From Grammothele lineata (Eukaryota; Basidiomycota; Agaricomycetes; Polyporales; Polyporaceae): a stretch of DNA of 64,000 nt. The DNA is taken from contig NDFF03000367.1 in assembly GCA_002150815.3 (NCBI GenBank), positions 62,001 through 126,000 on the forward strand, written 5' to 3'. A model generated the notes under the pieces. That model was not told where the DNA came from, ran no database searches, and saw only the letters and a list, made by a program, of their open reading frames with translations. Shown here in pieces: positions 591 through 48,567 of this stretch. Both the position numbers and the translations under genes were made by a program. The first letter of the stretch is position 1; the number at the start of each line of letters is the position of its first letter.

Positions 591-1719
591 ATGTGTTATT
601 TCACTATACCGCTGGACAATCGCTGTCCCTTAGTTCTCGATGTACGCGCAAAGAATGTCGCATATGGCCTTCCGCCTGGAGGGCAACATCGTGAACGCAT
701 CGATCAACGTGTCTTCCTGGCCGACAGCATGGTACACTCGCTGGAGACTGAGGACCCGGGGTCCATGTTAACACGTCGAAGGCAGTGGGGGCAAGTGGCG
801 TTCTGTATTGGATCAGCTGCAGAAGCGGTAAGCCCGCCACAACAAAGTTTATCAAGTGACCTGACCGTATGCTATCCTCACTTAGTGGTTGCCAGAGCCT
901 CCGGGATGGCAGATCTGGGTCCTCCTTATACGCTACCTCAGGGCAGTCACTTATCGAACACATTTACGTCATGGAGCAGGTGCAGATGCCATACTTCTCA
1001 TCACATTTGTAACCTCGCTCGCCCGTGCACACCAACACTGCATACCCCCGCCGCTTCTCCCACTCTGGGAACAGTACCTCACCTGCGACCTTTCTCTGCT
1101 GAGTTGCCAGGGAAAGCAGATCTGGAAAGCACTCTGGGAGCACTTTGACTCCCTAGCGAGTCTGGAGTTTCCTATTCCATTCAGACGTATGGCCGCATCC
1201 CCACAAATACCGCCTATATCACCTATTCCTGGTCCATCTCGCCCTGCTATCTCCCAAAATCCAGACTTCCATCTCAATCATCCCATTCCTGTGCCACACC
1301 ATAAATTTTCAGGTCCAAGACGAAAATCTACATTTGCGGAAATTGCGACTGAGTTGCGAGAACGTAGACGGCGCTCTGAGCGGTCAGGGCCCAGGGGAGC
1401 TCACCAACTTGCCACTTCAAGCTCCCTGGACATTCCTCTGCCAGCTGACATCTTCCGCGTTCGGACGTCCATCCGGGAGAAGTACAACAAAATCGTCATC
1501 TTACTACATTTGGCATACGCTCGCCTTGGTCGACTGAACGAAATCATTGACGATGTAACGGCGGATGAGAAAATGGCCATGGAGATCGATGATCGCAAAT
1601 CTTCTAATGAGCGGGCGAAGGACAGTATTGTACACCGTGCTCTTGGGATGACACAGGAGGTTTGGAGGGCGAGGTCGAAGGAGGTTGAGACAGCCATTGA
1701 ACAATTTTTGTATCCATGA
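591..1719 (+). CDS. Type A paralog 1 (A1), unknown function
   Basis: Two exons, 591-827 and 898-1719, joined in phase 0 across a 70-bp intron (GTAAGC donor, CAGAG acceptor), give 352 aa. The ATG at 591 is the first in frame and has a family-like N-terminal part. Conserved family features: a block ending in WGQVAFCIG (about residues 65-73) just before the intron; then GW-x-IWVLLIRYLRAVT, a GAGADA turn, and LWEQYLTCD; then a Pro/Ser-rich linker; and a C-terminal helix containing LHLAYARLGRL. No signal peptide or membrane segment is visible. A1 lacks the second intron found in A2 and A4. I recognise no named domain. The partner B1 lies tail to tail, 2.5 kb downstream. Gene existence is well supported by four paralogs in this window; function is unknown. 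Confidence 0.75.
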
Positions 1720-2315
1720 CTCAGCCTCGTTATGCAATTGCTTTCATCCTCCACCACATATAGCGCACTCATGCAGCGCATGCACTCTCAGCTTCGCCTC
1801 TAACGGTCTCTTCTAGACCATCGCTGACACAGACGCGACAGTCTGGCCTACAAGTGCGCGGTACTTGGTCGCCCGACATGTGTCCACGAGGCGCTTCATA
1901 CACCCGCTTGCGTCACGCTCCGTCTTAGTGCCATGCTCCAGCCTGACGCAGGCGCCCACCTCAATTACACGAGAACTTGAGCACTATTGAATGGCTGTTG
2001 ATTGAAACTGGGGACTATGAGATGAATGGAAAGAGGTGTTTGTATTTGGGAACTTTGGCCCACGATGGCCGATGTACGAGTACATGAGTACTTCGTAACC
2101 GAGCGTTGGTTGGCGTTGAGCAGTGCGTCCGCCAGATTTAGTGGTACACCACCTCGGAGCCGGATGCGGATGAATTATGATTGAATGTGATTGGCGGTCC
2201 TGACGCTGGGAGCCGCGCCCGAGTTGACCGGTGTCACTCGCCGGTACGAGCACACAGTGCTGTCAGGTAATATGCTTATTCGGCGCGTTTGCGAAGGTTG
2301 CAGGCTGGAGACACA

Positions 2316-2486
2316 GGAGTGTTATTAAGCAGGATGCATCCTCCTGAAGACCGCTCGTGCGTTTGCCTTAAAAGGCCGCGCCGATGCATCCCGTCCCGCC
2401 CGGGCACACGGCGGCGAGCGGCTGCCTGCGGCAGCACCCGCAGACCCATCCGCCGCCCCGCGTGCCCCGCGTGCCAGTGGTTCTCG
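2316..2486 (+). repeat. Dispersed repeat, copy 1
   Basis: About 170 bp that match, in inverted orientation, the segment at 3456-3640. The best-matching core is GATGCATC-C-GT-CCGCCC-GGCACACGGC-GCGAGCGGCTGC. No coding frame is shared between copies, so it behaves as a non-coding interspersed repeat rather than an exon. Confidence 0.5.
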
Positions 2487-3455: not shown

Positions 3456-3640
3456 GGAGAGGGAAACCGCACGAGGTGCGTGGGGCGCATGGGTCCACGG
3501 GTGCTACCCGCAACAGCACTGCAGCCGCTCGCAGCCGTGTGCCTGGGCGGAACGAGATGCATCAGCGCTCTCTTTCGAGGCAGGCTTACGAGCGACCTCG
3601 AGGAAAATGTATCCCGTTCAAGAATACTGTTGAACTTGGG
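3456..3640 (-). repeat. Dispersed repeat, copy 2 (inverted)
   Basis: Reverse-orientation relative of the repeat at 2316-2486, about 70-75% alike by eye. A third, weaker relative in this same orientation lies around 31087-31155. Ends are not sharp and no flanking target duplication was seen. Confidence 0.45.
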
Positions 3641-4062
3641 TTGTAACTCCTGCCTGGATACTGCCGGGCAGGAGGTAGGCCGTACCCGGCCATGGCCTGC
3701 GACTGGCAATGGTCCACAGTAACAGGGTCAAGAGGTCGAGGAAAAAACCTAATCTTAACGACATTCTCGCGCACAAGTTAAACATTGAATCGGAGCCTTT
3801 CACACAAGCCGCTTTTCTCAAAACGGTACTTCTCAAAACGCGGGGGTCTGGGCCATCGGCACATCGTAGCAACGTTTTACAGGCGTAAGCAGTAATAGTC
3901 TAAGATGATGGGTGGTATCTTCCTCCAAGAACCAAGAAAAACACTGATTGCGCAGAGGCGTGCAGTGACGGGTATGCGCAGGATGTACACTAACCGATGG
4001 GGGACCGACAATTAATCAAGCCATTTTTCACGGAACGCCTTTGGCTACTGTGCCTCAGCTCA

Positions 4063-4126
4063 CATGACACATTCGAGAACTCAAATACAGCTACCATGAC
4101 ACATTCGAGAACTCAAATACAGCTAC
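4063..4126 (+). repeat. Perfect 32-bp tandem duplication
   Basis: Two identical, directly adjacent 32-bp units (4063-4094 and 4095-4126), each beginning CATGACACATTCGAGAAC. They lie about 110 bp beyond the stop codon of B1. Perfect identity suggests a recent slip or duplication. Confidence 0.9.
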
Positions 4127-4237: not shown

Positions 4238-6126
4238 CTACGCACTGCGCGACTGCTTTTCCGAGAGGTTGGCGACTGACAACTCCTCCACCCTTTGAAC
4301 CGTTTCCTCCAAGCTGCCTATCCAAGTCATTCCACGGGGATTGGCGGCACTTTCCAACGTCAACCCCTTTGCGCGAACTGCCATGAGCTCCTGCTCTTGC
4401 GAAGACAGGGCCTTGAACCTCTCGATTAGTGCATCAATTCTGACGTAGCCGTCCTGTAGCTCGGAATGCCCTGCCACCAAGACTCGCATATCGTCTTGAG
4501 TTGGATGAAGCGTCGAAGAAGGTGGATAGTCGCGCGATGGTGTCTGCATTACATGGATATAAGTACCAGCTCCATAGGCATCGAGAAGAACTACGAGATC
4601 TCTGACCGTGACATTGGAGGCACCGGATGTTATGTGAGAACGCTGGAAATAAATGGATGGCTGGATGGCATGAAGCCCCCTGTCCATCGCGTGCTCCCCG
4701 TCGTCTTGCCGCGAAAGCGTTCCCTGATCGGACCTCCCTTGCACAAACGGCTCGAGCGGCGGATCGACAAGGTCAAGGTCGCGACAGGAATGTTCGGAAG
4801 CCACTGACAGTGTGGGGGTAGAGACGTCATGAGGAATACCGATGTCATCGCTATGCGTTCCTGCCCCGTCTCCTCTCAGAGTGATGGGGTAGTGGCGCGG
4901 AGGTAGAGTCTCCTCGACGTCTAGGCTGTCAAAGTGTGTACGCCACATTGCAGGGATGAAGTCAGAGGATTTGAATTCTCGCGGGAAGGAAGCGTGGAAG
5001 ATGCAGGATGGGGTCATGTCAGCAACATACCGGTTACAAGCTGATCCACTCTCGTTAGCAGGGGAGGGAAGTGGTTTCTGCTTGATGTCGGGATTGTGAC
5101 GCAACCTTGGCGTCTCAGGAGAGATTCCAATGTTCTGCTGACTGGCTTCCGACGCAATAACCTCGGTAGTACGGGATGCAGGAACAACCGGGGATTCACC
5201 ACGCCTGCTCTCATGCACGTAGGGCACGGAAGGCACTACCACCGACGGCTGTGAACGATGCTGGCCTACCCATATCGGCTCGGGCTCGGAGGACTGACGG
5301 AAGCTACCCTCAGCTTCTTCAATAGTCCATAGCTGCTGGCCACCAAAGAGCACTCGTCCGGTGTCCATGGGAGTAGATGGCGATGCTACCACTTGATGTG
5401 CTTCGTCCGGGCGCTCTCGCAACTCGGATGAAGGGGGAGGTACAGATCCTTTCATGGCGTTGGAGAATGAAGAGTTGTGGGTCAGTACATGAGTGCATAT
5501 GATGATAAGCATCAACAAGTGCCTCACCTTCAACAAACGGAGTACTATGCTCTGTCTGACGCATTGCACCCATAGGCGGCCCAAAATCAGAGAGAGTTAA
5601 GCCCACCTCCTCGAGCACGATAGCACTGTCCTCTCCAAATGTGTGCGCTAGATCGACCATACGCTCCATGTACCAGCCAATTCGTGGTCCCTTCAGAAAC
5701 GCCATCCACGCGTCTTGCTCTTGAGAACTCATTCGTTTCCCTGCAGACCCCAGTGACCACACTCGCCGCGGGAACGCCGCCAGTGACTTTCGCTCTAGGG
5801 TTGCTAGGTTGCACCCGTGGATCAAAGCTGTGTTGAGAGACTTCATTAAGGGCTCAAATTGACTGTCTTGAATCCGCTTGCGGATGTTTGGTCCCTTAAG
5901 CTGTCCGTGTTTATTAAGCTAAAGAAATCCTTTCATAACAATCGATAGGCCGTACGTGATGCCACCCAAACATTCCGACAGCCAAAGCTATGTCCTGGAG
6001 AACCTGAATACGCTGAATCTCGTCCACTTGCAGCGCCTGGCTACGACTCAGTTCGTTCAGTTGCGCAGTGGCGTAAGAATGCAGGGCAGAGGGTGTCATG
6101 GAGGTGAGATCGAGTGTGCTGGCCAT
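4238..6126 (-). CDS. Type B gene 1 (B1), helical and low-complexity protein
   Basis: Three exons on the minus strand, 6126-5956, 5900-5528 and 5448-4238, join in phase across introns of 55 and 79 bp and give 584 aa. Residues 1-57 form a short helical leader. Residues 58-180 form a helical domain with the pattern SSQEQDAWMAFL-x8-WY-x2-R and GLTLSDF, clearly matching B6. The middle (about 180-480) is Ser/Pro/Asp-rich and probably disordered. The C-terminus is helical and coiled-coil-like (ALIERFKALSSQEQEL, then LEETVQRVEELS). Unlike B6 there is no six-cysteine cluster, only two isolated cysteines near residue 310. A GTATGT near 5025 might mark a further intron. B1 faces A1 tail to tail. Function unknown. 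Confidence 0.65.
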
Positions 6127-6149: not shown

Positions 6150-7197
6150 TACGGAGGCTGCAGTGAGTACGTCTTAAGAAGGAAGCGGAAGTTCAGCAAA
6201 ATGACTTTTGACAGGCAGGGGTAGCACTAGACGCACTGTAATCGACGGCTGGAGAGGTAAGTGCCGTCCAGCCTTCGAATATCAGAGTCCTGATCCAGCC
6301 CCTCATGCCAGATAGCGTCAGTTCATGCACGTGCCCTGTACTTTGACGCTCTAGCACCGTGACTGTAAATAGTAGCCTAGTAGGTGTGGTTGCCCCGCGT
6401 GAAACCTGAGGTTGGTAGAATCGGACTCAAGTTCCAGCCTCGAATTTACGGGTATGGCTATAAAGGACTATATATCTTATCTGGTGGATCGTGGCTGATG
6501 CTCGATCTCCAGATACTCAAACGCTTTCGAATGGCTGGCCCCAACCCCTCAAGCCTTAAGCGCCTAACCCTAGGACAGAGATTCTCACGCAATGCGGAAG
6601 AAAATCGCAGAAGAGGCATGACGATCTTGTTTGTATTGCTGGGCTTTCATAATCAAAAAAACTCTTGAGCGAGAATTTGGCAAAACATGAGCCCTAACAA
6701 GCCCTAGATCCTGTGCAATCAGTAGTTACAGTCACTGCAGTGCCCGGGCCTTGGAATTTCAAGCCACGAGGTAGGATGAAACCTTCTATTCTCATGAATC
6801 AGCTTCGAAATCAGCTGAAACGCTGGCCGGCGGGAGCATTAGCAAGAGCCTCCACCTTCTCCCCGTCCCCGTCATCCCGTTCCCAGCTGCCAGCGAACCA
6901 CTGGCACTTTTGCGTTATCAACTATATTCACTGCCGCAGGACATACAAGTGAGCGGTTATCGATCATGACGCTTAGGTCTTCCTAGTGACCGATTCTCCC
7001 TGCCAGAATGAGCGGAGAAGAAATGCGAGAACGTACGGCCTATCTGAGTGCGCCCGGTTACTCTGTGAATCCCCCGGAAAGGTTTGGCTAGGGCCAATTC
7101 TACGAGGAGCCGGCCCTGACTATGATCTGATAGCAACGAGGAGTTTTGGACGGCAGCCGAGGTCACGGTCACGGAGAGGGAGGGAGACCATGCGACC
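6150..7197. other. Intergenic region upstream of F1
   Basis: About 1 kb between the divergent B1 and F1 genes. A 94-codon plus-strand frame at 6384-6668 lacks paralogs or recognisable motifs and includes a TATA-like stretch (CTATAAAGGACTATATATC around 6460), so I treat it as promoter-side DNA. Nothing else was recognised. Confidence 0.4.
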
Positions 7198-9033
7198 ATG
7201 TCTAAACGCCGCCGAAGACACGTCGAAGACGGCGCACCTGTAAACAAGAAGCTTTCTCCGGAGATTCTATGTGAAGTGTTCTTGCTAGCCACAGAGTACG
7301 CCAGAACGGCAGGCCCGTCATTTTTGCGGAGCGACAAGCATTCACACATCAATTCACACGTTGACGTCACCACCCTCCTTGCATTGACCCATGTATGCAC
7401 GCGCTGGCGGGCACTCGCCATCGACTACCCTATCCTTTGGACACGCTTTGACCTGAGGAACGACGAGCTCTATAATTTGTTCGTAGAGCGGTCAAAACAT
7501 GCCCGCCTCTCCGTCTCTGTCGGGAATCAACAAAAATATCTGTGCTACCTTAACAGCAACAGGGTACACCGCCAGCTCGAGCTCTTGGCCCCAAGATTGA
7601 TTCGTCTTGACATCGTTCATAGGGCGCTGGCGCCGACCGATCCAGGGGAGATTGATCCCGCATTCAGGTTGGATATGCCCGAGCTACGTTGCCTCAAAGT
7701 CATCTTCGTGAAATACACGGATTGGATGCTGGCAGAAACCCCAATTTACTGGCTCACTCTGCACCAAAGGCCAGAATCGCCGCTCAGGGCACTCTCACTC
7801 TCCGGCGTTCTAGACTGGTTGCCGCAAAATACCTTCCCTCATCTCACCCATCTGCACCTCTCATTTGCCCATTTCAGAATCGATCAGGTGGTGGTGAAAC
7901 TCCACGACATCCTCATCCTTTTGGGCCAAGCTCCAGCCCTTCGTATGCTACAACTCGAAGAGATCGGGGACGCGCAGTTCAACATTCCACCATCCGTGCC
8001 ACTCCTTCGCCTTCCATGCCTAGCTTCAATTTCACTCACCGGGTGCGACGCTGGCATTCTTGACCTCTTTCGCTATATCGAATTTCCCGACCTATTTTTG
8101 TTCACCACGAGGGACTCGAGAGGACTTGGGCAACGTAGCCGTCCCGGCCATGATAAACCTGTCTCAATCACCTTCCCGCTTTGGTTAATGCAAGACAACA
8201 CCTATCAACTCGACGTCCGCTGTTCACTGTGGTCCCCCGAGTACGTCCTCGCATTTCACGGGAGAACACGTCGTTTCTTGCTCCAGAGCACACGCTCTGA
8301 TGCCACCCCCGCGTCCGATCCGTCAGAGGACGCATCCGAAGAACTTTCTGACACTCCATCTGAGGAGGCGTGGCTGAGCAACGATACTCATCACTCATTC
8401 CACGAGGCACTCCTCTGCGTCCAGACCCTCTTGGCAGGCATCAAAGCACAACCGAGCCTTGTCGCTCACGTCACCTGCTTCACATTCGACGTCGTCCCCT
8501 TAGATCCAATACCTCTCGTCAAAGCGGTCACACAGATGCCTGTGCTGGACAGGTTTGCAGTTCACTTATCAGCATTAGTTGGGAATGAGAGGGAGGAGCT
8601 GGGTGGTGAAATTCCAGTGCCACAGGCAATGGCCTTTTCCCCGGCGGTGGTCGTACGCGTCTTTTGTAGGGAGCTTGAGAACGCAGCAACTCGCAAACCG
8701 CGAATTCCTCTACGCGAAATCACGCTTCAGCTCTCCACGCTTGACCCAGGCCCCACTCTGGCCGGCTACCTGCGCCATGTAAAAGCGGCCGCCGCGCGAT
8801 GGGGGCGAGAAGGAGGGCGGCTTCGGATAATGAATTTGACGGCGAACGCAGAGTCGGACTCGGAAACCAATGGAAGCAGGAAGCGAGTCAACGACATGGA
8901 GGAGATGCAGGAGCTGAGGAATGTGGTCGACGTTGTTGAGGTGAAGCGTTGGGATGAGACGGAATTAGGAAGAAGATTGGTCGAGGAGAGCCCAGCTTGG
9001 GAATCAAGGGAACAAAGAGCCTATTGGGACTGA
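7198..9033 (+). CDS. F-box protein with leucine-rich tail (F1)
   Basis: Single exon of 611 aa. An F-box-like motif spans about residues 15-85: it begins KLSPEILCEVFLLA, has a variable insert, then ALTHVCTRWRALAIDYPILWTRFDL, the usual Agaricomycete form. Such proteins bind Skp1 in an SCF ubiquitin ligase and choose substrates through the rest of the chain. The remainder has irregular leucine-rich segments (LRALSLSGVLDWLPQ, FPHLTHLHLS), an acidic Ser/Asp/Glu stretch near residues 365-400 and a charged C-terminus. The ATG at 7198 is preferred because an upstream ATG at 7189 is out of frame. Substrate unknown. Mushroom genomes carry many such genes. Confidence 0.85.
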   Translation: MSKRRRRHVEDGAPVNKKLSPEILCEVFLLATEYARTAGPSFLRSDKHSHINSHVDVTTLLALTHVCTRWRALAIDYPILWTRFDLRNDELYNLFVERSKHARLSVSVGNQQKYLCYLNSNRVHRQLELLAPRLIRLDIVHRALAPTDPGEIDPAFRLDMPELRCLKVIFVKYTDWMLAETPIYWLTLHQRPESPLRALSLSGVLDWLPQNTFPHLTHLHLSFAHFRIDQVVVKLHDILILLGQAPALRMLQLEEIGDAQFNIPPSVPLLRLPCLASISLTGCDAGILDLFRYIEFPDLFLFTTRDSRGLGQRSRPGHDKPVSITFPLWLMQDNTYQLDVRCSLWSPEYVLAFHGRTRRFLLQSTRSDATPASDPSEDASEELSDTPSEEAWLSNDTHHSFHEALLCVQTLLAGIKAQPSLVAHVTCFTFDVVPLDPIPLVKAVTQMPVLDRFAVHLSALVGNEREELGGEIPVPQAMAFSPAVVVRVFCRELENAATRKPRIPLREITLQLSTLDPGPTLAGYLRHVKAAAARWGREGGRLRIMNLTANAESDSETNGSRKRVNDMEEMQELRNVVDVVEVKRWDETELGRRLVEESPAWESREQRAYWD

Positions 9034-9471: not shown

Positions 9472-10546
9472 ATGATGGAGAGCTACAAGTCTCACATCCA
9501 TCCCGTACGCATCGCTAAATTCAGCCCAAGTGCTTTGGGGATCTCTGGACCGCGCTCCTCGGGCTCAGGTGATCGCGGGCCCACGGCGGTGGACCGCGCA
9601 GTCAAAACGGCTTCAGACGCGGTAGCAGCCCTACATCCTCCCCTCAACATGGATCGAACTAAGTGGGGAAGGGTTGCGTTTAACATTGGCTGTGTTGCTC
9701 TTGCGGTTAGTAGACTCTCCTCATTCTGCCCATGTTCCTAAAACTTAGTGTATTCTGAGCAGCGGCTTCCCTATCCACCAGCGTGCTGGGAGATCTCCGT
9801 TTTGCTCGGTCGGTACATTCTACGGGTTACCCCACACACCAGTTTAGAGCTAGGCGCGGTGGCAGATCTTATGCTGATGTTGGAGCACGCCGCACGCCTT
9901 TCCGAGTTCCCCTCCATGCCCATATCCATTAGCGAGGTGTCTCGCTTGTGGGAGCAGTATCTCACCTGCGACGTCGATCATCTTCCTTCAGTGGGAAAGA
10001 ACGCGCTTCAGCAACTGATGAACTCCTGCAATGCCGGGTGGTCAACACTTCCAGTGTCATTCCATCGGGAAGCAATAGGCTCGACCACGACCCCCAAAAC
10101 TATTCCCAATCCCACTCGCCTTCCCGTACCATTCACCGTGACATCCACAGGTGTAGCTGGGACCTCCGGGTACGTCGTACTATATGCTCTTTCCATGTTT
10201 CCTTACAAAAGAAACCGACTGCGATAACAGAGCCATCCCTGGTTCAATTTCACCTGCGGATGCGGGCGACGACCGTACGATGCCCAAAGTGGAGGAGATT
10301 CGCAATGAAATGCTCAAGACGTATAGCGAGCTACTGCGGGAAGTGCACCTTGCCTACGCGCGTTCTAGAGGGTTCAGGGAAGCTCTGAATGAGCATTGCA
10401 TGAGAGATCGGGATGTGACGATTGTTGAAGATCCCAAGCTGGAGAGTGAGACGCCAGACGACCTGCAGAGAGTGTTATTAGGCTACTCATGGGAGGAAAG
10501 ACAGACCGAAAAGGATGCGGCGATGCGACGTTTTTTGGGATTGTAG
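9472..10546 (+). CDS. Type A paralog 2 (A2), unknown function
   Basis: Three exons, 9472-9705, 9763-10169 and 10231-10546, join in phase (introns 57 and 61 bp) to give 318 aa. The first intron follows codon 78, as in A3, directly after the WGRVAFNIG block. Exon 2 carries CWEISVLLGRYILRVTPHTSLELGAVADLMLML and LWEQYLTCDV-x4-SVGKNAL. Exon 3 carries the helix LLREVHLAYARSRGFREAL. Pro/Thr-rich linker between. No signal peptide, membrane segment or catalytic motif recognised. Gene B2 lies tail to tail, 231 bp away. The conserved exon pattern across paralogs makes the gene call firm; the function is unknown. Confidence 0.78.
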
Positions 10547-10777: not shown

Positions 10778-13443
10778 TTATTGTGAAGACGTCGCCGATG
10801 GGTTATGTAACGGAGAAGCAGGGCGGTTGCCTGTAAGGAGAAGGGTGTCAAGCTGTTGCGAAAGGCGGCGAATGGTTTCGTCGCTCTCTGTAACCCTGGC
10901 TTCTAGCAGCCTCAGAACGCAATCTCTCTTGCGCCCCTCCTCTTCTAATACAAGAACTCTGGCGTTAAGGCGATCGACGGCTCTCTCGCGGCTTGTGGAA
11001 GACATCGTCGCCTGCAGCGTTACAACTTGACCCTGCAACATCTCGATGCGGTCCCTTAGTGCGGAATTTTCACGTTCGTCTGAGCGGCCGGTGGGAGAGG
11101 GCTCTGAGGCAGACATCGGGGAAGAAACCACGTGACAGGCATTCTTTTCTGGCTCGTCCATGCCATTGTGAGTCGGCGGCCGGGGGGAGAGAGCAGGGAT
11201 GCCTTCTACATCGTCTACAGCGGAGCCTGAGTGCCCAAGAAAAGCGGCGCGCTTCAGGTTCTCGACTCTTGTTCCCAACAATGATACGTCTTGAATTATG
11301 CGCGCGGCCTCGTCTCGCTCACGTGACTGGGTTGGTCCAGAGGCCTGCAGCGGATTTGAAACAACGTCACGGAGAAGGTCGCTGAGGTCGCGGAGATGCC
11401 GCATGGACGCCGCATCTGCTCCACGTTCGCTCGATTGGGTGGGAAGATCGACGGGAGCTAGAGCCTCAGCAAGAGTTGTAAGGATTCTCTTCCACTCCGC
11501 AGCGACTACGGTGATCTCGTGCCGGAACTCCTGACGAAGTCTTGCGATGTCGCGGTGGAAATCTTCAGCCTCCATTGAACGGACGGCTTGAAGGTCATAG
11601 ATATCAACCTCCGCATTGCTGAGCCGCGCTTCATGCCGCTCGACCGTGCGCCAGATGTGCCAGTTGGATGACGTGATAGAACTCACGACGTCCTCAACGT
11701 GCGTCAAGTCACGTATGATGGAGCGGCGGAACTCTTGGATGGAGCGGGAGAAGGACGCATTATTCTGGTGGAAGAGATAGTAGTGGTTGAGAACGCCCGT
11801 GATGTTCGTAACTGCGCGCTCCATCCTAGCAAACATGAACGCATGATCCTCGTACGATTCACGCTTCGCCGTGACGATCAACTCCCGCAGAATCTCAAGG
11901 TGAAAATGCACCCGTTCGAGGCTGTTGGAGCCGAAAGCAAGACCTTTGTCATGCTTGTGCCCAACGGGAGGTGGACGAGGACCCATGGGCAGTGTCCCAG
12001 ATATTAAGAGGGGCTTCAAAGAGTCGATGGCGGTGTATTGCTCCGATGTTAAGACGTCGGTCGAAGAAGCGTGGGGCGGTGCGGCATTGTGAGAGGAGGA
12101 GGCTGTATGAGAGCGCAAAAGCAAACAAGTGTTACAGTCAGGGACTTTCTTTCTACATGGTAAAGGAAGCAAGCCTACCTTCGGCTTGCGAAACTGCTCC
12201 AGACCGCCAAGCAGGGTGCGTCTGCTTTACGAGCAAACCGGCATGATAGCGCTCTGAAAAGACATGAGGTACATTAGTGGAGAGAATGTTCAGTAGGGCC
12301 GGTCTGGGACTGATTGGGGCTTCTTGTTGCACATCCTGAGCGGGCGCCCCACTCTCGGGATCATTCGGCAGCGAGGGACCTCGGCCTCTATTCTCGCCCC
12401 TATCTTGGATCGAGCCTGGATCTCCGCCGTAGCTAGATACGTCGTCTTTGCTGTCTGCGTACTCGCCAGTGGTGGACATAGCCTGAACAGAGGTCAAGTC
12501 GCACAGCAAGCGGGCAGAGGCGGCTGAATTGACAGGGGTACTCGCGTCGATGTCCATCGATGGTGCAGCATTTGCCGACGTTCTCCACGAAAGCCCTAGC
12601 ATAACGACCGGCGGGCTAAGTTGGGAACCATGAGTGTGTAGACAACGTGCGATACACACTTTCGTTGATACCACCGGCTGATGAAGGAGAATATTGTATG
12701 CGATCTACTGGATGGTCCTCGAGATCGCTGCCTGCATAGTTTTCACTGACCCTGTCGTTTTTGTGGTCTCCATGTGCTGCACGAGATGATGCCTCATTGA
12801 TCTACTTAAGCGATTAATCTCTTACAGCTGCAGAAGCGATAGAAAGATGCACCTTTGATTGCGCTGTCAGCATGCCCGCCTTCTGGTTCAGGTTGACGGC
12901 AGTAGAAGGAACAATGGCTTCTTGTCTCTCAACAGCTGGTGGCGAGAGTGGCCCTTGAGGCAGATGGGCGATTCCAGACGGGGGCGGAGTCGCAGACGGA
13001 CGTGAATTGTATCCCAATTGTTCACCGCGCCTCATATTGCGTCTCCTTGGCAGTGGAGGTGCTAAATATTGTCTGCGTGAGTACGTATTTGATGAGGCAA
13101 CACCATGGGGCTCGGGGGCTTACTGGAGGTTCCCCCGCGTCCAGCTGGAGCAAAGCGATAGCGATCGTCCTCGCTTCTTGCACGACTATCCATACCTCCA
13201 GGAGTTCTCGAGCTGCTCTCTATAGAAACTGTTAGATCACACGTAACAGGGCGCCGATTACGTGGCCTCACGATGGAGCGTAGACGTATCGCGCGTACTC
13301 GGAGGAACTTGAGGGTCTTCGAAAGCCTCAGAGAGATCAGAAGTTACGCGTGGGATGTTGTTTATGGAGGTTTGCTGTGGGTCGAGACAGAATGCTTCAG
13401 CAAAGTGTGACCGAAGCAGGCCAGCTCTACGAGAAGACGCCAT
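10778..13443 (-). CDS. Type B gene 2 (B2), coiled-coil protein
   Basis: The strongest part is the last exon, 12102-10778, opened by a TCATACAG acceptor. It codes a long helical region (EQYTAIDSLKPLL, then HLEILRELIVTAKRES), a Ser/Pro linker, and a C-terminal heptad-rich coiled coil (RLNARVLVLEEEGRKRD, LRLLEARVTESDETI). Upstream, Ser/Pro-rich exon-like frames lie at about 12670-12240, 13035-12835 and 13220-13070, and a start is likely at 13443 (MASSRRAGLLRSHF). One junction (about 13060 to 13035) does not resolve in phase, so the 5' half is approximate. No zinc cluster or B1/B6-type helical domain is evident, so the type B label rests on layout and position. It faces A2 tail to tail. Function unknown. 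Confidence 0.5.
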
Positions 13444-21600: not shown

Positions 21601-24600
21601 ATGGCCCGTTATTGCACCCTCTGCCGACGCTCGTTCGTCACCAGCCGCGGTCTCATACGACATAATCGACTCTATCATCGCCGTCCCAAGCCGCCCCCAG
21701 TGAATCCCCCAACGTTCAGGTACCATCCACATCTGACAGGCGAGTCATATCGAACTACCTGTACATGATCTTCGAACTAACATATTAATCTAGCCCAGCC
21801 TTGTGACGAAGATGGAAACGACCTGGATGATGAAGACATGGCGGCTGCCCCCGAAGATCACGACGACGCCAGCTGGGATCCTTTCAAGGATCGTCCGACA
21901 TTCGAGTGGGCCTAGCTCGTTTTCGAGAAGATGCAAATCTCGGCCGAGGAGATCAACATGCTCCTCGAGGTCGAGCGAGCGAAGCGGGTTCTCGAGGACC
22001 TCGAAGGCAACGGGGGCGATGGCACCGATGGCGCTTTTTTTGCTAGCGCAGCTGATATGTATGCTCATATCGACGCAATACCATACGGGCCCGGGTCATG
22101 GCGTGCGTTTTCGGTGCGGTGGAACGGGCCCATGGCACCCGACTCGGATGCCCCGTGGAAGCACGACACATACACCGTCTATACCCGCGATCCCCTGTAC
22201 GTCCTGGAGCACATGGCACGCAATCCCGAGTTCGATGGCAAGTGGGACTATGTCCCCTTCGAGAAGTACGTAGGTCCAAACAACCGTGAATTCTCCAATC
22301 TCTTCTCGGGTCGCTTTGCATATCAAAAGGCGGTAAGCTCTCTAAAGATGTTCTACGATTCCCCAATGTCCTCCTTACTACGTTTCATATCTAGGACGAA
22401 ATATACGAAGAGAATCCTCAGCAGAACGACGGCTCCATGTTGTATGTCGTTGGGCTGGGGGCGGACAAAACGACGGTATCTGTCGCAACCGGCAATCAAG
22501 AATTTCACCCTCTGTACATCACCCCGGGCAACATCCACAACGAGATGCGGCGCGCACATGGTGAAGCAGTCACGCCGCTAGCGTTTCTAGCGATCCCGAA
22601 GAGTACGTGTTTCGTTGGAGACGAAGCAGTTTCGTGTGAGCTTCATGCTAACGAGTCCTCGGGTCTAGCCGCTAAGGAGCATAAGGATACACTCGAATTT
22701 CGCCTGTTTCAAAAGCAGGTCTATCATGCTTCCCTCGCACGAATTCTTGCCCCGCTGAAGCCATGGATGAAGACGCCAAGGACGATTCGCTGCCCAGATG
22801 GTCGATACCGCCGCGCTATCTTCCAGCTCGGCCCATTCATAGCCGACTACCCGGAGCAGGTATACCTCTCCGGTATCGTGTATGGATGGTGCCCGAAGTA
22901 GGTTGTCTGCATTGAGGTTCCATGTACACGTCACTGATTGTGGTTCTAAGGTGTCGCGCGCTGCCTGACGAGCTCGAAAACATCGGAAAGGCTCGGTTCA
23001 AGGCACATACAAACCTCGTCATCGAAACGTATACCGCGGCGACGCAGTGGGATGTTTTTGGTATACACGGAGACGTAACGGTACGTTGCGACGGTTGCTC
23101 ATACTAGTGTCTTCATCGGCTGATCGAGTCGTGTAGCCGTTTACAGAGAGCTTCCCACGTGCCGACATCCACGAACTTATCACGCCTGATTTGCTCCACC
23201 AGCTGATCAAAGGCACGTTCAAAGATCATCTGGTGGCCTGGATCGAGGAGTATGTTCGCCTGACAGCCCCGAGCGAGCGCGAAGCCAGCAAGATCATCGA
23301 CGAGATAGACCGGAGGTATGATATCTCGTTGCTTAGCGCGAGTTCATGTTTTGAACCCCTTCACATCAGACTTGCGGCCGCGCCTTCTTTCCCTGGCCTT
23401 CGACGTTTTCCGGACGGTCGGGACTTCAAGCAATGGACTGGAAACGATTCAAAAGCATTGATGAAGGTGTGTTATATCGTATCTGATGTTCACATATCCC
23501 ACGAATATACTGGGTAACATGCGAATCTTAGGTCATTCTGCCCGCGATCCAAGGACTCGTCCCCAATCAGATTGTCCAGTGTGTCTCCGCGCTCCTGGAC
23601 TTCTGCTATCTCGCACGCCGCTCAGCACACGACATGCCGACCCTCGCAAAGATGAACCAAGCCCAAGCGCGCTTTCACGAACTCCGCGCGGTCTTCATCG
23701 AAGCTGGTGTACGCGCGGATGGATTCTCGCTTCCTCGGCAACACGCGCTCGTCCACTATGTGAAGTCGATCAAACTGTTCGGCTCACCTAATGGCGTATG
23801 CTCATCAATCACCGAGTCGATGCACATTCGGGCGGTGAAGGAGCTATGGCGTCGGTCTAACCGCTCGGAGCCTCTCGAACAGATCCTGCGCACCAACACG
23901 CGCTTGGCGAAGCTCGCGGCAGCTCGCGCGGAGTTTGGACGACGTGGGATGCTGTACGAGTCTGTCCTCACTGCTGTTCTTCATCAGCTTGGAATGGAAG
24001 ACGAGAGCCGCCGTCCCACGCAAGCTGCACTAGATGCCCGTTTCCTCGACGAGCGAGATGCTGCAGCAGCTGATGGCGATCCCGCGATGTCGTGTGTGGC
24101 GCTGTCCGCGCGGCCAGGTAAGCTCATTCCCACTATGTCCTACGTGCATCTCTTCTTACTTCGTCATATGCTTTCCGACCACCAGCGCGTTCGTTGTCGC
24201 TCGACCACCTTTCCGAAGCCATTGAGAAGCCAGATCTTCGTGAGAAGATCTGTCGCTTTCTCTGGGATCAATACTACCCGGATGGGGTCATAGGCGAAGA
24301 CGTTCCACTCGAGCAGTGCCCGCAGTTCTATCACCGCGACCCCGTTGGCATCTATTTCAAGGCCGATTCGATGTTTTATGCACCCAGCGAGATATCCGGG
24401 CCATGTGGGATGCATACCGAGGTCATACGGTGCAATCCGGCATGGTATGGTAAGTATCCTCGCTATGATACCGTTCTCGTCAATCTGGATCCAGAGGCGC
24501 CAGGAATGGCGGGTATGCTTGTTGCTCGCATTGCCATGTTTCTTTCGTTCGAGTTCGAAGGGTCTCTCTATTCGTGCGCTCTCGTGGAGTGGTTTGAGAC

Positions 24601-36720: not shown

Positions 36721-36733
36721 TCACGTGATGGTG

Positions 36734-36851
36734 CCCCCGCACTTATGCAAGCCCCCGCACTCGTGCAAGCCCCCGCACTCGTGCAAGCCCCCGCACTCGT
36801 GCAAGCCCCCGCACTTGTGCAAGCCCCCGCACTTGTGCAAGTCCCCGCACT
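36734..36851 (+). repeat. 18-bp tandem array carrying CCCGCAC
   Basis: Six full units and one partial unit of CCCCCGCACTCGTGCAAG; units differ only at one or two positions (TTATG, TCGTG, TTGTG). It ends about 140 bp before the A3 ATG. Each unit carries the CCCGCAC word seen upstream of other A and B genes and also the half-palindrome GCAC-x4-GTGC, so it could be a cluster of binding sites. Confidence 0.95.
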
Positions 36852-36993: not shown

Positions 36994-38051
36994 ATGGCTC
37001 AGCCCATCGACCAGTGGAACCTCACTGGGCTGCCTTTCCACAACATTTACGACATGTGCAACGTTTTTCCCGACGACTTTGAAAGAAATCAGGCACTTAG
37101 GTATCGCCTAGGCGTTGCAGACAAATTCCTTCGAGATTTGGAGGAGGCAGGGATCGGCGGAGCTAGGGTAGAGCGGCGGTCACTGTGGGGGGCCGCTGCC
37201 TACCATATATGTTATGCGGCAGAACTGGTACGCCATTACCGTTACATCCCAAAGAGTTACCTCACATCGTATTTCAGTGGCTTCCTAACGGCCCAGGTCA
37301 GCCGGTAGGGGGCTTCCTGGCGAGATACGTCCGGGCAGTGACTCGCCACACCGACCTGCGCTACGCTGCGGTCGCGGACGTGATGCTGATGCTGGGTTAT
37401 GTCTCCAAGCTTGGGGAGAAACAACACTCGACGCTCCCAAGAAACGCAGCCTTCCTCTGGGAGATTTATCTCACTTGCACCGTGGAGGACCTGGAAACAA
37501 CAGGGAGGCAGGTTTTGGATGCCATTCGCAACTGCACACCGTTCTGGTTTGAGTTCCCCGTGCCCTTCGTGCGTCCTCCCTCTGCAGTCCGCATCACAGC
37601 AATATTACGTCCCCCCATGTCCCCCCCCCCGGTATCGGCGCAGATGCTCTCCATGCAGTCGACGACGGTTTACGACGTTAACGACGCTGGCCTGCGTCGA
37701 AGCGTTCGCCAACCAAAAGTGTCAACTAGACTTCAAGACGCCCTCTCCTCCACGGAACCGGACGTTGCAGCTCGCATCCTGGCAATCCGCGAAGAGATGC
37801 GACTGAAGTACAACGAGTTGGTGTTGCGCCTCCATATAGGCTACGCCAGGTCACGAAGGTTGGTGGAGTTGCTCGACGAGTACACTGAGCAGAAGGGCGG
37901 TGGTGGGAAGGAGGGTAAAAAGCGAGCGAAGGGCAAAGAGCGGGCCGGAGATGTCGTCGAACGTGGCACCGGATTCTCTCTGGTCGCTCTGAAGGCATGT
38001 ACGTTGGTGAGGGAGGGAGCGATAGAGCGATTCCTGTGCAAAGACCTGTGA
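36994..38051 (+). CDS. Type A paralog 3 (A3), unknown function
   Basis: Two exons, 36994-37227 and 37302-38051, join in phase 0 across a 74-bp intron placed after codon 78, exactly as in A2, giving 327 aa. The start sits in a good context (ACCATGG). Family features: LWGAAAYHICYAAEL before the intron; FLARYVRAVTRHTDLRYAAVADVMLMLGYVSKLGE after it; LWEIYLTCTV; FPVPFVR; then a Pro/Ser-rich linker and the helix EMRLKYNELVLRLHIGYARSRRLVELLDEY. The tail is Lys/Gly-rich. No second intron, as in A1. B3 lies tail to tail, 294 bp away. Function unknown. Confidence 0.78.
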
Positions 38052-38345: not shown

Positions 38346-39349
38346 TCATCGTTTCCCGCTACCCGTGGCACGCGCAACGTCTTCAGCCTCCTCCTCCACA
38401 AAGACTGACGCATTCAGCTCTTTGAGCCTCGCCATCGCATCAGCCATGTCGTCAACCTCCGCCAACTCCGGAAGCCGCTCTTGGATAATGCCACGCATAT
38501 CCCTACGAGGAAGCCGGGATATCAGGCGTGCTTGCTGAATATCCAACGATGCTAACTCTCTCGTGAGAGTTCTAGCTCTCGAGAAGTCGGCCGTCATTTC
38601 GTCATAAATGTGAATGATGCTTCTTGCCGTGATAGCGGAAGGATCATCTGGCGCAGGGTGCGAGAAACGAGGCAGGTCGCGGATGTGAAGCGCATCTACG
38701 CTTCGCAGCAGTTCGGCCTCAATAGAGCACGCCAAAGCGGGGACGTTCGATGAAGATCCACTAGGGCGAATTGCTGAGTTATGTGAATCTCTACCACGTG
38801 TCGAGGTTTCCAGGTCGTTGTCGATATCCATCACACTATCCACAGGGGCCGAAGCGGGCGGCGAGGGGGACAAGGTGGCGACCGAAGTCTGACCCCGCGC
38901 GGGGGCAGTAGCGGGTGGCCTGATACGTATAGTGAGAGAGGATTGGGGAGCTGCAGAACGTGTGGCGCTGCGCAGGTCTCCTCGAGGAGGGAGTCGGATC
39001 TTCAGCGCGGCGGGGCCAGCAGCGTTGGTGCTCGCCGGCATAGTAGCATCCATCTGTTTACTATCGGCGGGATCGAGGGCAGGAGAAGCCTTCTGGCATT
39101 GTTCGGGTTCTTCCGGGAGGTCAGCGGAAGTTGAATCGTGCAAATTTTCCTCACAAGAACCCATGCGCCTCTAGCAAAGGCGTATTTAGCCACCTTACCC
39201 CTCTTATCCCGTTGGACGCTGTCACTCACCTCGCTAGGCGGATTGCTGGCAGCGTCTTCGCCCGATTGAAACAACGGCTGAGGGTCTTCGTCAAGGAGGA
39301 AGACTGGAATCACAGAGCAATGAGGTCGCAAAGAATGATCAGCGGACAT
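38346..39349 (-). CDS. Type B gene 3 (B3), Ser/Pro-rich protein with helical tail
   Basis: Exons 39349-39230 and 39170-38346 join in phase 0 across a 59-bp intron (GTGAGT donor, GCTAG acceptor), giving 314 aa. Residues 1-40 are a short leader; about 41-175 are Ser/Pro/Ala/Arg-rich and likely disordered, with a VDSVMDIDNDLE patch. The C-terminal 130 residues are helical (IIHIYDEMTADFSRARTLTRE, DMADAMARLKELNASVFVEE) and probably coiled coil. The architecture matches the type B slot but it lacks the zinc cluster of B6 and the N-terminal helical domain of B1, so homology to them is not proven. Two GTGCGGGC motifs lie 230-260 bp upstream. It faces A3 tail to tail. Confidence 0.62.
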
Positions 39350-41862: not shown

Positions 41863-42588
41863 CTAGTCCTCTTCTGTATCCAGCTCGCTTCTATTCTCTG
41901 TCTCATCTAAGTCGCTGCCAATGTCACTGACTGAGCCCCTGCATTCAGCATCCGTGACGGGATCATGAAGCGTTGCCGCCAAAGCGCGACCCAAGCAAGA
42001 CGAACGGCCCCGTGCTACTGTCAAAGAACGCACCCAACTCTCCCTTTCCTCGATCTCGTGGCCGTTCAGCTGCGCATCATCGACCTGGCCTAAGAGAACC
42101 CGCCGAATCTGGTTGATCTCGGGCGAAGCAAGTTCGATGAACTCTTCAGTTTGACGCTGAAGGTCACGCACTGCAGCCATCATATGTACCCATCGTAAGT
42201 TGAGATGCTTCATGCGAGAGTAGATCGCCATTGATTCTGAGGTGCCAGCGTCTTCGGACGTGAGGGGCGACGGACGAGTGGCCTGGGAGGCGAGTTCGAC
42301 GCGGGAAGATTCTCCCTCAGACTCCAACCCATTATCGCTGTCGTCTAACCCCTCCCCTTTAAAGAGGTCGTCCATGCAGTGGTAAATGATGTCGGAGGGA
42401 TGACGCCTCCCTGACGGCTCCACTGCGTCGAAATCCTCAGGCGAGAGGACGCGTGCTCGAACAGATTTGCCGTATCGAAGGCGACCCTCAGAGTTGTCAT
42501 CGTCGAACTCAGAGGGAGCCGTACGCTTTGAGACCATGGCTTTGCCGGATCTTGGTTTCGGTTGATTATCAGGAAAGCCCGCTGCCAT
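41863..42588 (-). CDS. Type B gene 4 (B4), acidic protein
   Basis: Single exon of 241 aa from the ATG at 42588. The N-terminal third is Lys/Arg/Ser-rich, the middle very acidic (DDLFKGEGLDDSDNGLESEG), then a helical segment (AIYSRMKHLNLRWVHMMAAV, RDLQRQTEEFIELASPEI), and a Ser/Asp/Glu tail. Immediately upstream the same frame stays open for about 30 codons and contains GCKNIEGVDLHDC, reminiscent of the cysteine cluster region of B6, so B4 may be a shortened relative or may have an unseen upstream exon. A TATA-like ATATAAG lies at 42794-42800. It is in tandem with A4, not facing it. Function unknown. Confidence 0.55.
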   Translation of the reverse strand: MAAGFPDNQPKPRSGKAMVSKRTAPSEFDDDNSEGRLRYGKSVRARVLSPEDFDAVEPSGRRHPSDIIYHCMDDLFKGEGLDDSDNGLESEGESSRVELASQATRPSPLTSEDAGTSESMAIYSRMKHLNLRWVHMMAAVRDLQRQTEEFIELASPEINQIRRVLLGQVDDAQLNGHEIEERESWVRSLTVARGRSSCLGRALAATLHDPVTDAECRGSVSDIGSDLDETENRSELDTEED

Positions 42589-43755: not shown

Positions 43756-44880
43756 CTATTGACTGAGGGACAGAAACGATTCTAACGCGTCCTCCTCCCT
43801 GTCTGCACGAGATAACGATTCCGAGGGCATGAAACCGTACTCAGTAGCAGCCGCCAAGACTCCCTCTTGACCCAAAATCTCACGGATGGCGTATGTGTTG
43901 GCGAGATATAGATGAAGAGTGGAAATCAACTGCTGATGTACTGCATGATACTCCGTGCGAATGTGCTCCACCTTCTCTAATTCTTCAGGTGTGAGGCCCC
44001 CGAGGCCAGTTGGGACGATCGGCCTTTGCCCAGAGGTCGAAGGGGAGGCCCGTGCCTCTACTCCTGATAGACATGAGTATCGACCGTTTGTAGGAGTAGA
44101 CTAGATGCCAGAGGACAAAAATCGCGGTTAAGCGGCGGCTGCTAGAGGTAGGAAATGACTGCATCACCTGAGAGGAGGCATGCGGTTGCGGGTGGCTGAT
44201 AGTGGACGGCACACGCGCTGAAGCAGTACCTCTATCGGGTACCATTTCCCGTTGAAATGACACAGGAATCAGCCAACGGCGGCTGTAAGAACCGAGCCCT
44301 GCTCGAGGGCGATAGGTGGTGAAGATCGTGGCGAGCGCGCGCTGTCCTATGGATGGAAGTTCTTCCAGGCCGCATGAGAGGTATGTTGACCACAGACGAA
44401 GGTCCTCGCGTTCAATAGCTTGAACTCCAGTGGCGCTGAGAGACTGGACGTGATCTAGCATGAGAATGGCATCTGCAGCGGCTCCATGGTGTAGGAGAGT
44501 GCGCTTGGCCGCCATGTCAAGAAACATTTGGAGCAGCCGATCGACTGGCCATCCGGGCCTACCAGGTAGCCACTAGTTTGCAGTAATGAGATTGTGTTAC
44601 ACGGCTCAAAAGGTCATTCACATACCGTGGTAGCCAAAGACCCTAGGAGAAACGCGATGCGTCCCCACTGTGGCCGGTCCATAATGATGCCGTCTTGAGG
44701 AAGGGTGTTCAATAAAGCGCATATTAGCCATATCTGTGAACGTGCATTCTCTACATCGGTTCCACGGAAAGGCAAACTGTCTAGTAGCGTGGCGTCGATG
44801 TAAAGTGGCGGAGCGACGTGAGGAAGTGGCTGTGAAGGTTGGCCACTCCTCACTGCGTTGTTGGCGGGCGCAGGAAGCAT
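43756..44880 (-). CDS. Type A paralog 4 (A4), unknown function
   Basis: Exons 44880-44626, 44572-44168 and 44055-43756 join in phase (introns 53 and 112 bp) to give 319 aa, close to A2. The ATG at 44880 is the first true one. Family features: WGRIAFLLGSLATT before intron 1; then WLPGRPGWPVDRLLQMFLDMAAKRTLLHHGAAADAILMLDHVQSLS; LWSTYLSCGLEELPSIGQRAL; IPVSFQRE; and a C-terminal helix LHLYLANTYAIREIL. The second acceptor is the least certain splice site. Unlike A1-A3 it is not tail to tail with a B gene: B6 is upstream and B4 downstream on the same strand. Confidence 0.75.
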
Positions 44881-45281: not shown

Positions 45282-48200
45282 CTACGGCGGGGCTTGTGAT
45301 TGCCCCAGAGCGGCCGCCAAGTCCTCCAATGCTCGCAAGCTGCGCCGTAGCGAAAGTGGGCTAGACGTGGCCGACGCGTGCTCACCGCCTTCATCAACAG
45401 GAACACCCATATCCTGCCCTGTGATACCAGTTTCCTCATCGGCAAGCTGCAAGAGACGGGAGGCTAGGGCCTCTGCTTGGGCGAAAAGGTAGTCGCGGTG
45501 CTCCTGGGCGGTGTTAAGGCGTTGAACCCATTCGGGCTGGGACAAATCCGGGATAGGAGGAGGGGAACGTGTCCCAGACAAAGGTTTTAGGGTCCACGGA
45601 GGCAGGAACTCTGGGGAGGACGAGGCGCGTGGAGCAGAGTCGACCATGACCTCCTCGCGAGCAGACATCGCGTCATTGTTCTCTGACGTTCTATCCACAC
45701 GTACCACGGCACGTTGTGCAATGTAGAAGGTGGGTGGCGCTGACGGAACGTGCTCAAGTCGATCTAACGGCGTAAAGATCGAACGACGGCTGGGTTTCTG
45801 GCCGCGTGACGCGTTCTGCGATTTGGACGGAAGCGAGGCCTCCTCTCTGAGCTCTTCAACCAACGCATGGCGCGCTTCAGCGAGGGGAAACTTGAAGTGC
45901 GTCTCTTCTGGATTCCGCCCCGGAGGAAGAGCCTCGGCTTTGAGGAATGGCGGAACGAGGATGGTATCGTCGGGGGACAGGTAGACTGGTTCCCCATCGG
46001 CCATACATTGTAGTTGAAAACTTGCTAGTGCCTCGAAGCGCGCGCGATCTGAGCCCGAAAGACCTTCTCGAAAGAGAACCACGCTGCCGTTGTATTGGGC
46101 TTGTACGTCTCGTGTGGCTCCCTTGGCTGAGCGCGCGGTCAACACAACTGTGATGACGAAGAATAAAAGACGAACCTTTGAACGTGCCATCCAGGCTCAT
46201 GTTGTTCGTGACACATCTTTGAGACGCCTTGTGACACGCTTCACAAGTAAGAAGCTGGACGCCCTGAGTATTTTCACCACGGTTGCACCGTCCGGATACG
46301 CCTCCCCCGTAGCGACAGCGATCACACTTGACTCACGGTCAGAGACTAGACAAGGACGAAGGTAAATTGTCACATACCGGTATGTCAGTTCTGAAGGGAG
46401 CGCGTTTGCTGTCAATCCACGATGGGCCACGCTTTGTGGAAGGCTGTACTTGGCGACTCCTCGTTGGTCGATTGCGACTGCGGTTTGGACTGTTACTCTG
46501 CGTGGGCAAACTGATGCTGGGGCGAACTTGGTTTTCCTGAGCCTTTCTCTTCCTGCCCCTTGTTTGACGAGGTTGAATGTCGTCCAGACTGTTGCTTGGT
46601 GTGGGTCCTGTGGGGGCTTTGACGGGTGAGAGAGAGGCTGGGGCAGTGTCAGCGTCCTCCCCTTGGTGAGCCGCGGCATCCATCATGTCCAAATCGCCGT
46701 CGATAGGACGGAATTGTTCACTAGGGCCGCAGATATCATCAGAATTGAGAACGCCTGCACCATCAACAACACGAGGGTGGCCGGAAACTTGCGAACCACT
46801 TGGATCGCCGGCAATAGAGGGGCTGACCGCAACGGAGGAACGAACATTAAAGACGCCAAAGTGTAACTGAATCCGACCGGTCACAGGCGCACTGTTGGAA
46901 GAAGTCCCATTGTCAGTGGACAACTTCGCCTTTCTGACTCTCCTTATGACAATATCGTCCTCGCCCTCGTCGCCTTCATCTTTTTTCTTGTCATCCGGCT
47001 CCTCAGGGTCCGCAGACATCCTGTCGCCCGAAGACTCACGTTCGTAGTAGGAGTCGCTGTGGTGAAGGGACGGCCTGTAGAGACGACAAGGGCCTTCTCC
47101 TGAGCTGGCCTTGTCGCCGGAGTGCGATGACTTATCAGAGGATGGGGAGCCATGGGATGAGGAGTGCGAGCCGGAGGAGGAAGTGTCGCTGGAAGACGAA
47201 TAGGGAGATGGAGAGAATTCGCTATCCGAGTCGCTGGGGTGCATTTCTAAGACAGACCGGGAAGATAAAGGGGAACGCAACGGACTCGGCGTCATCATCG
47301 CCAGCTTGCGACGCTTAGGGGGGGTGGGAACACTGGGTGTAGTCTTCACTGGGGCCTGTACAGGCTGGTTTCTTCGATGCTCGTCTACAAACCCTACGTG
47401 TTTTGGAGGCTCAGCCTTTGTACGAGATTTGAAGGAGGCTGTTGTTTTAGGTGCAAAGGAAGGGGCTGGGACAGAGAGACTCGCGGATGTGGCATATGTC
47501 GCAGACACCGCAGGTTCTGCGGTGGTGGCGGGAGCGGGAGCAGCGGGGGAAGTAGGGCCAAAACTTTGGATGGCGTTATCCGGTGCAGGACCGTCAATAG
47601 TATCATCAACATCCATTGTGTCCTCGCTGCCAGGTGGGAAGGTAAAATGTGAGTGAGGGATGGCTGGGGCCTTGCCCTTGTCTGCGGCTGGTTTGGGGGA
47701 GTATGGGTTCTGAACGTCGTCACCATTGTTGCTGTTCTGGCAAGTAAACATAAGGTGAGTATACATAACAGTCATTGAACATTAAGACGGTATCACTCAC
47801 TTGTACGGGAGCGGGCAGCGAGAGCATGAGCTGCGTAGGCCCGGATGCGGGCATCGGAGGCGTAGGTGCGGGGGGCTGAAGCCCAAGCGCTAAATGGGGC
47901 ACCACTGGTGCGGGCTCCGAAGGCGCCAGTGCGGGCATTGCAATGTCCGGTGCGGGGTCGGAAGAAATTGCTATAGCAATGGAAGGAGGTGGCGATGGGG
48001 AGAAACTTGAGCGTGGAGATACGACCGGTCCGAAAGAAGAGATAAGATTGACGGCGGACTCGTATTCCAACGTAGCAGAAGCGAAAGAAACTAGACTCTC
48101 CGGGATACCGCTCTCGATGAGTAAGTTCCAGCCAAGGGCAGTAAGAAGTTTTGGGAGCCGGTTGTGATACCATTTGTAGTCGCATGGTCGCGCGTAAAAC

Positions 48201-48567
48201 TCAGCCCAAGCCTGCGCCTCCTTTTCTGTCACGGGTGCTTCGGGCTCGTTTGATGCTGCCACCACTCGCGTGAGATATGCAAGAAGGCAGTGCCTCTCGT
48301 CTACATCATCAGGCACAAGCTGGGCCAGATTTTGAGATAGATGATTCCGACAGCTCAAAATTTCCGACTTGTCATTCGGGTCAAGAGGGTTTTGCCACTG
48401 CCACTTCGTGGTTAAACACCGTCGTAAATATTGCCATAATTTTCACTCACCGTTCTGCTCCGTTCGCCAATCCCGGCGCATATTTTGAGAAGCTTGCGGT
48501 CAAGATCAGGTTGCATGACGTCCAAGCGGTTGAGTCGCTTGAGGAGCCATTCGTGAGGTTGTGACAT
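45282..48567 (-). CDS. Type B gene 6 (B6), large protein with six-cysteine cluster
   Basis: Five exons, 48567-48451, 48403-47801, 47736-46378, 46326-46176 and 46126-45282, join in phase at every intron (47-65 bp), giving 1,024 aa. Residues 1-39: helical leader. Residues 40-150: helical domain matching B1 (TEKEAQAWAEFYARP-x5-WYHNRLPKLL, IPESLVSF). Residues 160-690: Ser/Pro-rich disordered region with a GKRKA-type basic patch. Residues about 694-731: six cysteines, C-x2-C-x9-C-x13-C-x2-C-x6-C, close to the fungal Zn2Cys6 pattern but placed far from the N-terminus. The tail ends in a leucine-rich coiled coil (LRRSLRALEDLAAALG). A DNA- or nucleic-acid-binding regulator is possible, but the spacing is unusual and no target is known. 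The apparent signal peptide at 46190 is an artefact of reading through intron 4. Confidence 0.75.

Follow-up and report, generated by a model that had tools for sequence, protein, structure and literature searches.

An interleaved array of two diverged gene families outside the mating-type loci of Grammothele lineata

What kind of locus is it in which two unrelated gene families recur side by side at a single place in a fungal genome? The question is raised by a stretch of 64,000 nucleotides from the basidiomycete Grammothele lineata (C219:62001-126000; hereafter the window), in which the first-pass annotation had recognized a recurrent module of neighbouring genes of two types, A and B. The contig, C219 (GenBank NDFF03000367.1), is 852,856 bp long and belongs to a genome of 41.8 Mb in 252 contigs. 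The flanks (C219:1-62000 and 126001-186000) were joined to the window, which gave 186 kb with 2,834 open reading frames (ORFs) for analysis; the splice sites of all of the gene models described below are predictions made without cDNA. The recurrence of the two families side by side at one place was borne out: five A genes and four well-supported B genes are interleaved in 56 kb, and A was seen nowhere else in our searches. The reading that we prefer, to which we assign a probability of about 0.38, is that of a single-locus array of two families which arose by local duplication followed by long divergence, and whose products would be intracellular partners, some of them nuclear, resembling the HD1/HD2 mating-type proteins in their way of working without belonging to them. 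Neither family appears to have been described before, and the array could represent a new sort of locus, with a regulatory or a self/non-self function.

Two gene families at one locus

Family A comprises five paralogs, four of which lie inside the window where the first-pass annotation had placed them. A1 (591..1719, plus strand; exons 591-827 and 886-1719) encodes 356 amino acids (aa), A2 (9472..10546, plus strand; exons 9472-9705, 9763-10169 and 10231-10546) 318 aa, A3 (36994..38051, plus strand; exons 36994-37227 and 37278-38051) 335 aa and A4 (43756..44880, minus strand; exons 44626-44880, 44168-44572 and 43756-44055, the last splice being uncertain) 319 aa. The fifth, A0, encodes 330 aa and lies about 2.2 kb to the left of the window (C219:58728-59786). 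The spliced models of A1-A4 are open and agree in the position of a phase-0 first intron, directly before a [W/R]LP motif; A0 has the same intron. A profile built from any four of the genes detects the fifth, with E values from 2e-66 to 5e-42 (A1, 2e-66; A2, 5e-42; A3, 5e-48; A4, 1e-43); pairwise identity among the five is 26-34%. The earlier description of A genes that share an intron position and motifs yet differ strongly in sequence was thus accurate, and our confidence that the family exists is high.

The family also appears to be confined to the array, and we hold this with high confidence on the basis of two kinds of search. A2 and A4 were used as queries against the genome; each returned all of the other four A genes, A0 included, and nothing significant off C219, the best such match having an E value of 0.015 on C38 (with an internal stop) and weaker ones lying on C54. 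A hidden Markov model of A1-A4 matched 12 of the 2,834 ORFs at E values of up to 10. All 12 are exons of the five known genes, and further A copies near the array were thus not seen in the 186 kb. Since A was seen in no other place, the array is best attributed to local duplication.

At 318-356 aa, the A proteins appear to consist largely of helices: the N-terminal domain is conserved and is joined by a variable linker to a helical C-terminal part. The AlphaFold model of A3 exon 2 is all-helical and of low confidence (predicted local distance difference test, pLDDT, 57; predicted template-modelling score, pTM, 0.34). Among A1-A3, which were scanned with Pfam, A1 and A2 had no match and A3 had one at chance level (E = 0.09); the best match in a profile search of the PDB had an E value of 0.99. 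No match at E <= 1 was found in the protein database for the A alignment among 7,997 candidates scored, or for the B0a protein among 7,996, in a search that requires shared five-residue words and scores a limited candidate set, so that distant relatives may escape it. A control search with a piece of the Plavaka transposase from the window gave 266 matches, with Mycena sanguinolenta among the matches listed; the database therefore does contain fungal proteins. As judged from titles and abstract openings, none of the papers listed in searches of the open-licence literature describes such a locus.

Family B has four well-supported members: B0, B0a, B1 and B6. They share an N-terminal domain (ER.CLL.FL.RV...E..AW..FL.G...WY..R) that follows a phase-0 intron, and each was recovered from the 2,834 ORFs by a profile from which it had been left out. 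B0 (C219:54569-57789, left of the window) was found with an E value of 2e-12. B0a (C219:60014-62158, minus strand) was found at 1.5e-11; its 5' end, with most of exon 1 and the start codon at window position 158, occupies window positions 1..158. For B1 (4238..6126, minus strand) the value was 3e-10 and for B6 (45282..48567, minus strand), which has a Ser/Pro-rich middle and uncertain exact exons, 2e-7. The next ORF was not below E = 0.29, and the full profile detected no fifth copy within the 186 kb. These segments were trimmed by eye; searches with whole ORFs gave weaker, mostly concordant matches. We regard the existence of the four-member family with high confidence. A 32-bp unit is repeated 2.2 times directly past the 3' end of B1 (window 4056-4126).

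Genome queries with B1, B0a and B6 matched B members on C219 only. The B6 query found B0 alone (C219:54674-55516, E = 4e-7), the B0a query likewise found B0 and missed B1 and B6, and the B1 query found none of the other three and nothing off C219. Each query missed some of the known members, so that B genes elsewhere may have escaped detection; these searches suggest the confinement of B to the array with moderate confidence, less firmly than for A. In A as in B, the first intron is in phase 0 and comes after a helix of similar appearance; a distant relationship between the two families was considered and was rejected at an hhalign probability of 1%.

Besides their N-terminal domain, which differs from that of A, the B proteins have a Ser/Pro-rich middle and, in three of the four (B0, B0a and B6), a Zn2Cys6-like module of six cysteines; a motif scan of the 186 kb found these three occurrences. 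The leave-one-out E values are 1e-8 for B0, 5e-4 for B0a and 2e-6 for B6. In B6 the module lies at 46213..46326 (minus strand), reads C-x2-C-x9-C-x13-C-x2-C-x6-C and has no Pfam match of its own. B6 and B0 also have in common the stretch that follows the module (E of about 1e-10), and both contain basic clusters.

Arrangement of the array

The order of the genes over 56 kb is B0<, A0>, B0a<, A1>, B1<, (F-box-like>), A2>, (B2<), Plavaka pieces, A3>, B3<, (B5<), A4<, B6<, where the arrowheads give the orientation and brackets mark genes not counted here as A or B. B0/A0 and B0a/A1 are head-to-head, with gaps of 938 and 432 bp, respectively, and B1/A2 are divergent with the F-box-like gene between them. 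Tail-to-tail gaps are 227 bp for A0/B0a, 2,518 bp for A1/B1, 294 bp for A3/B3 and 231 bp for A2/B2, while A4 and B6 stand in tandem, 401 bp apart. The distances of 231, 294 and 2,518 bp given in the first-pass annotation for three convergent A/B pairs are correct as numbers. A2, however, faces a gene that is not a B, and the gene opposite A3 is a weak one, so that A1/B1 alone, of the convergent pairs in the window, includes a well-supported B. The proposal that the tail-to-tail pair is the unit of duplication is not supported in that form, and such a pair was rejected as an evident unit because neighbours in all three orientations are present.

Five genes in the window had been listed as B. 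B1 and B6 are related to each other and well supported; the relatedness assumed for the whole list fails for B2, is weak for B3 and could not be demonstrated for B5. B2 (10778..13443, minus strand) belongs to a different coiled-coil family: it has no match to the B ORFs, and its relative is a 556-aa ORF on C230 (in C230:118501-121500; E = 4e-6; 24% identity over 372 residues in BLASTP, E = 5e-11). A gene at C219:50.6-53.3 kb was considered as a further B2 relative and was not supported (E = 0.84). B3 (38346..39349, minus strand) is possibly a B gene without the N-terminal domain. It has a weak C-terminal match to B0a, with an E value of 0.0016 as an eye-trimmed segment and 0.046 as a whole ORF, and its genome search gave no significant paralog (best other match E = 0.56). 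The C-terminal profile of B0a, B1 and B3 is itself weak, since B1 is not recovered when it is left out. B5 (41863..42588, minus strand), the fourth of the listed genes, is not supported as a member, having no match below E = 0.3.

Could A and B have been duplicated together? By bit score the best paralog of A4 is A0 and that of B6 is B0, which suggests that A4/B6 and A0/B0 descend from one duplicated pair. By overall identity, however, A0 is nearest to A1 (34.4%, compared with 32.7% for A4), and B0a is nearest to B1.

Other genes lie within or beside the array. The gene between B1 and A2 (7126..9033, plus strand) matches the Pfam F-box-like family (E = 1.9e-6) and is neither A nor B. Between A2/B2 and A3/B3 are pieces of a Plavaka transposase (21916..23514, plus strand), with PF18759 in three ORFs (best E = 9.5e-51); a 154-aa piece has a 99% identical entry in the protein database, the source of which is a 667-base contig. 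A Cys/His-rich ORF at window 52135-52734 resembles, by eye, a PHD-like finger and the ORF at C219:170803-171501; it had no Pfam match at E = 0.01. PHD was matched by one of the 45 flank ORFs scanned with Pfam.

A motif upstream of the A genes

The word CCCGCAC was spotted by eye, and all 7-mers were tested afterwards. It is present in sense in the 300 bp upstream of each of the five A genes and heads the ranking of oriented 7-mers (binomial p = 1.6e-6, uncorrected for the roughly 16,000 words tested). When five B genes were added (B0, B0a, B1, B3 and B6) it was present in seven of the ten, B3 and B6 being the positive B genes. It ranked third (p = 1.4e-4) in a both-strand test of 500 bp upstream of ten genes, with B2 and B5 among them but not B0 and B0a. 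There are 41 sites in the 62 kb around the array and 10 in 50 kb at the left.

A tandem array of an 18-bp unit (36733..36851, plus strand; 6.6 copies) carries the motif in each copy and lies 150-260 bp upstream of A3. A 26-base pattern taken from it has a single location in the genome when up to three mismatches are allowed. Five further sites with 18-bp spacing lie among unrelated ORFs to the right of the window, on the minus strand at window coordinates 66733-66805 (C219:128733-128805). Words like TCACGTGAT were seen by eye 10-30 bases ahead of some sites, at about 36724, 48650, 61100 and 13460. The reverse complement of the motif, GTGCGGG, contains a CGG triplet; Zn2Cys6 proteins often bind CGG triplets.

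Candidate roles and known systems

HD1/HD2 loci encode partner proteins in several diverged versions, in head-to-head arrangement; the present array, which on its simplest functional reading is likewise a set of diverged partners, may work in the same manner. The A and B proteins look intracellular, since neither the A proteins nor the N-termini of B showed a strongly hydrophobic stretch in a crude scan. On the reading that we prefer, A and B would be partners within the cell that pair through their helical regions; the B proteins with the cysteine module would work on DNA inside the nucleus, tuned or gated by A. Of the hypothetical roles named in the first-pass annotation (recognition, regulation or selfish behaviour), all of which are still hypotheses, a nuclear regulatory one gains some support from the module in three B proteins and the basic clusters in two. 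The CCCGCAC sites upstream of the A genes may contribute to control and, with many diverged versions in one locus, the combinations might be specific to a strain, as in the HD1/HD2 arrays. Our confidence in regulation by partner proteins is moderate to low.

Several results weigh against this reading. The interaction between A and B is inferred, and both of the structure models obtained are of low confidence. Zn_clus (PF00172) scores 17.4 bits against B0a, under the Pfam cut-off of 21; the Pfam scan gave no Zn_clus match for the B0 or B6 modules, and the motif scan found no six-cysteine module in B1. B0, B0a and B1 lack a sense CCCGCAC in their 300 bp of upstream sequence. The motif is also frequent to the right of the array (40 sites in 74 kb, compared with nine in 40 kb in four control stretches) and therefore marks a region wider than the array itself. 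The A-B identity correlation for the four pairs A0:B0, A1:B0a, A2:B1 and A4:B6 was r = 0.38 (rank 30 of 120 assignments), which, with four pairs, is compatible both with duplication as a unit and with its absence. In a run test, as many runs as observed occur in 27 of 126 orders when B3 is left out (p = 0.21); with B3 counted, giving five A and five B genes, the figure is 10 of 252 (p = 0.04). The pattern is thus one of near-alternation, weakly beyond chance only with the doubtful B3, and no orientation is prominent as a unit.

An ordinary local cluster, in which tandem or segmental duplications multiplied two lineage-restricted families in a region that rearranges and contains transposons, and in which A and B are functionally unlinked, is about as likely as the partner-protein array. 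It would account for the unrelated genes that are interspersed (B2, B5, the F-box-like gene and Plavaka), for the variable orientations and for the pairing test and the alternation without B3, both of which are within chance. What it leaves unexplained is why two unrelated families should have multiplied in one 56 kb stretch, with A seen nowhere else, and why CCCGCAC should be common to all five A genes and two B genes in the upstream position.

Recognition between strains is possible, with low confidence. That the A/B alleles and paralogs are compared between mycelia, at a locus for somatic or nuclear recognition of non-self, is an unlikely explanation, albeit one in keeping with the strong divergence of linked paralogs and the two-family make-up, as in multiallelic loci, and with a position separate from both mating-type loci. 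It may also be counted in its favour that PMC8229728 calls the mechanisms of somatic incompatibility in basidiomycetes 'completely unknown'. The same source argues in its section 5.1 that direct protein-protein incompatibility is incompatible with a heterokaryotic life cycle; moreover, no HET or similar domain was found in the parts of A and B that were scanned, and the data come from one genome only. Also improbable, in our view, is a more novel reading in which the array, on a contig apart from both mating-type loci, would be a third locus for recognition in mushroom-forming fungi: A and a zinc-module B would discriminate between self and non-self, in nuclei or in mycelia, and would switch genes, including their own promoters, through CCCGCAC sites. 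The recognition reading is of high interest although our confidence in it is low. Fast-diverging, locally multiplied and linked genes of two kinds could also be selfish killers or meiotic drivers, one family being the poison and the other the antidote, but the DNA-binding-like modules and basic clusters of the B proteins fit regulation better and we consider such drive very unlikely. Two strongly diverged families in a compact array outside the mating-type loci offer a concrete case in which recognition, or else the combinatorial control of genes, can be tested. Should neither apply, the array remains a record of two families for which the present Pfam and PDB searches gave no match, and of the way in which they multiply.

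The array was also compared with the mating-type loci of the same genome. All 25 of the STE3 matches are on C233 and C156, where the receptor genes form two groups (at 262-310 kb and 15-29 kb, respectively). C38 carries the sole Mating_N match of the genome and, at a distance of 0.8 kb, one of its three Homeobox_KN matches; C11 and C50 account for the other two. The STE3, Mating_N and Plavaka genes together fit a mushroom-type basidiomycete. No homeodomain, Mating_N or STE3 match was found in 68 of the 150 listed window ORFs, nor in A1-A3 and the B parts that were scanned. With STE3 on C233 and C156 and the Mating_N/homeodomain pair on C38, the array is neither of the known mating-type loci. 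The layout with head-to-head neighbours is like that of HD1/HD2 arrays; a canonical mating-type locus, whether of the homeodomain or the pheromone/receptor kind, is nevertheless strongly disfavoured by the positions of STE3 and Mating_N and was rejected.

Three known systems bear comparison with the array. The gene pairs of ascomycete non-allelic incompatibility (het genes) are, like A and B, tightly linked, non-homologous and fast-diverging, as described in PMC8229728, and differ in that a HET or related domain was not found in the A and B parts scanned. Zn2Cys6 regulators resemble B0, B0a and B6 in having six cysteines in the order CxxC...C...CxxCx6C, and Zn_clus does match B0a, although below the cut-off and with B0 and B6 unmatched. 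The middle loop of the B module, at 13-14 residues, is longer than in the usual Zn2Cys6 pattern. The HD1/HD2 arrays (MAT-A) differ from the present array, the scanned parts of which lack homeodomain and Mating_N matches and which has tail-to-tail and tandem neighbours as well. They are like it in joining two unrelated-looking partner families, in several diverged copies, at one locus, and in their head-to-head neighbours (here B0/A0 and B0a/A1), their Ser/Pro-rich stretches and the basic clusters of some members, features that are in part described in PMC8970355.

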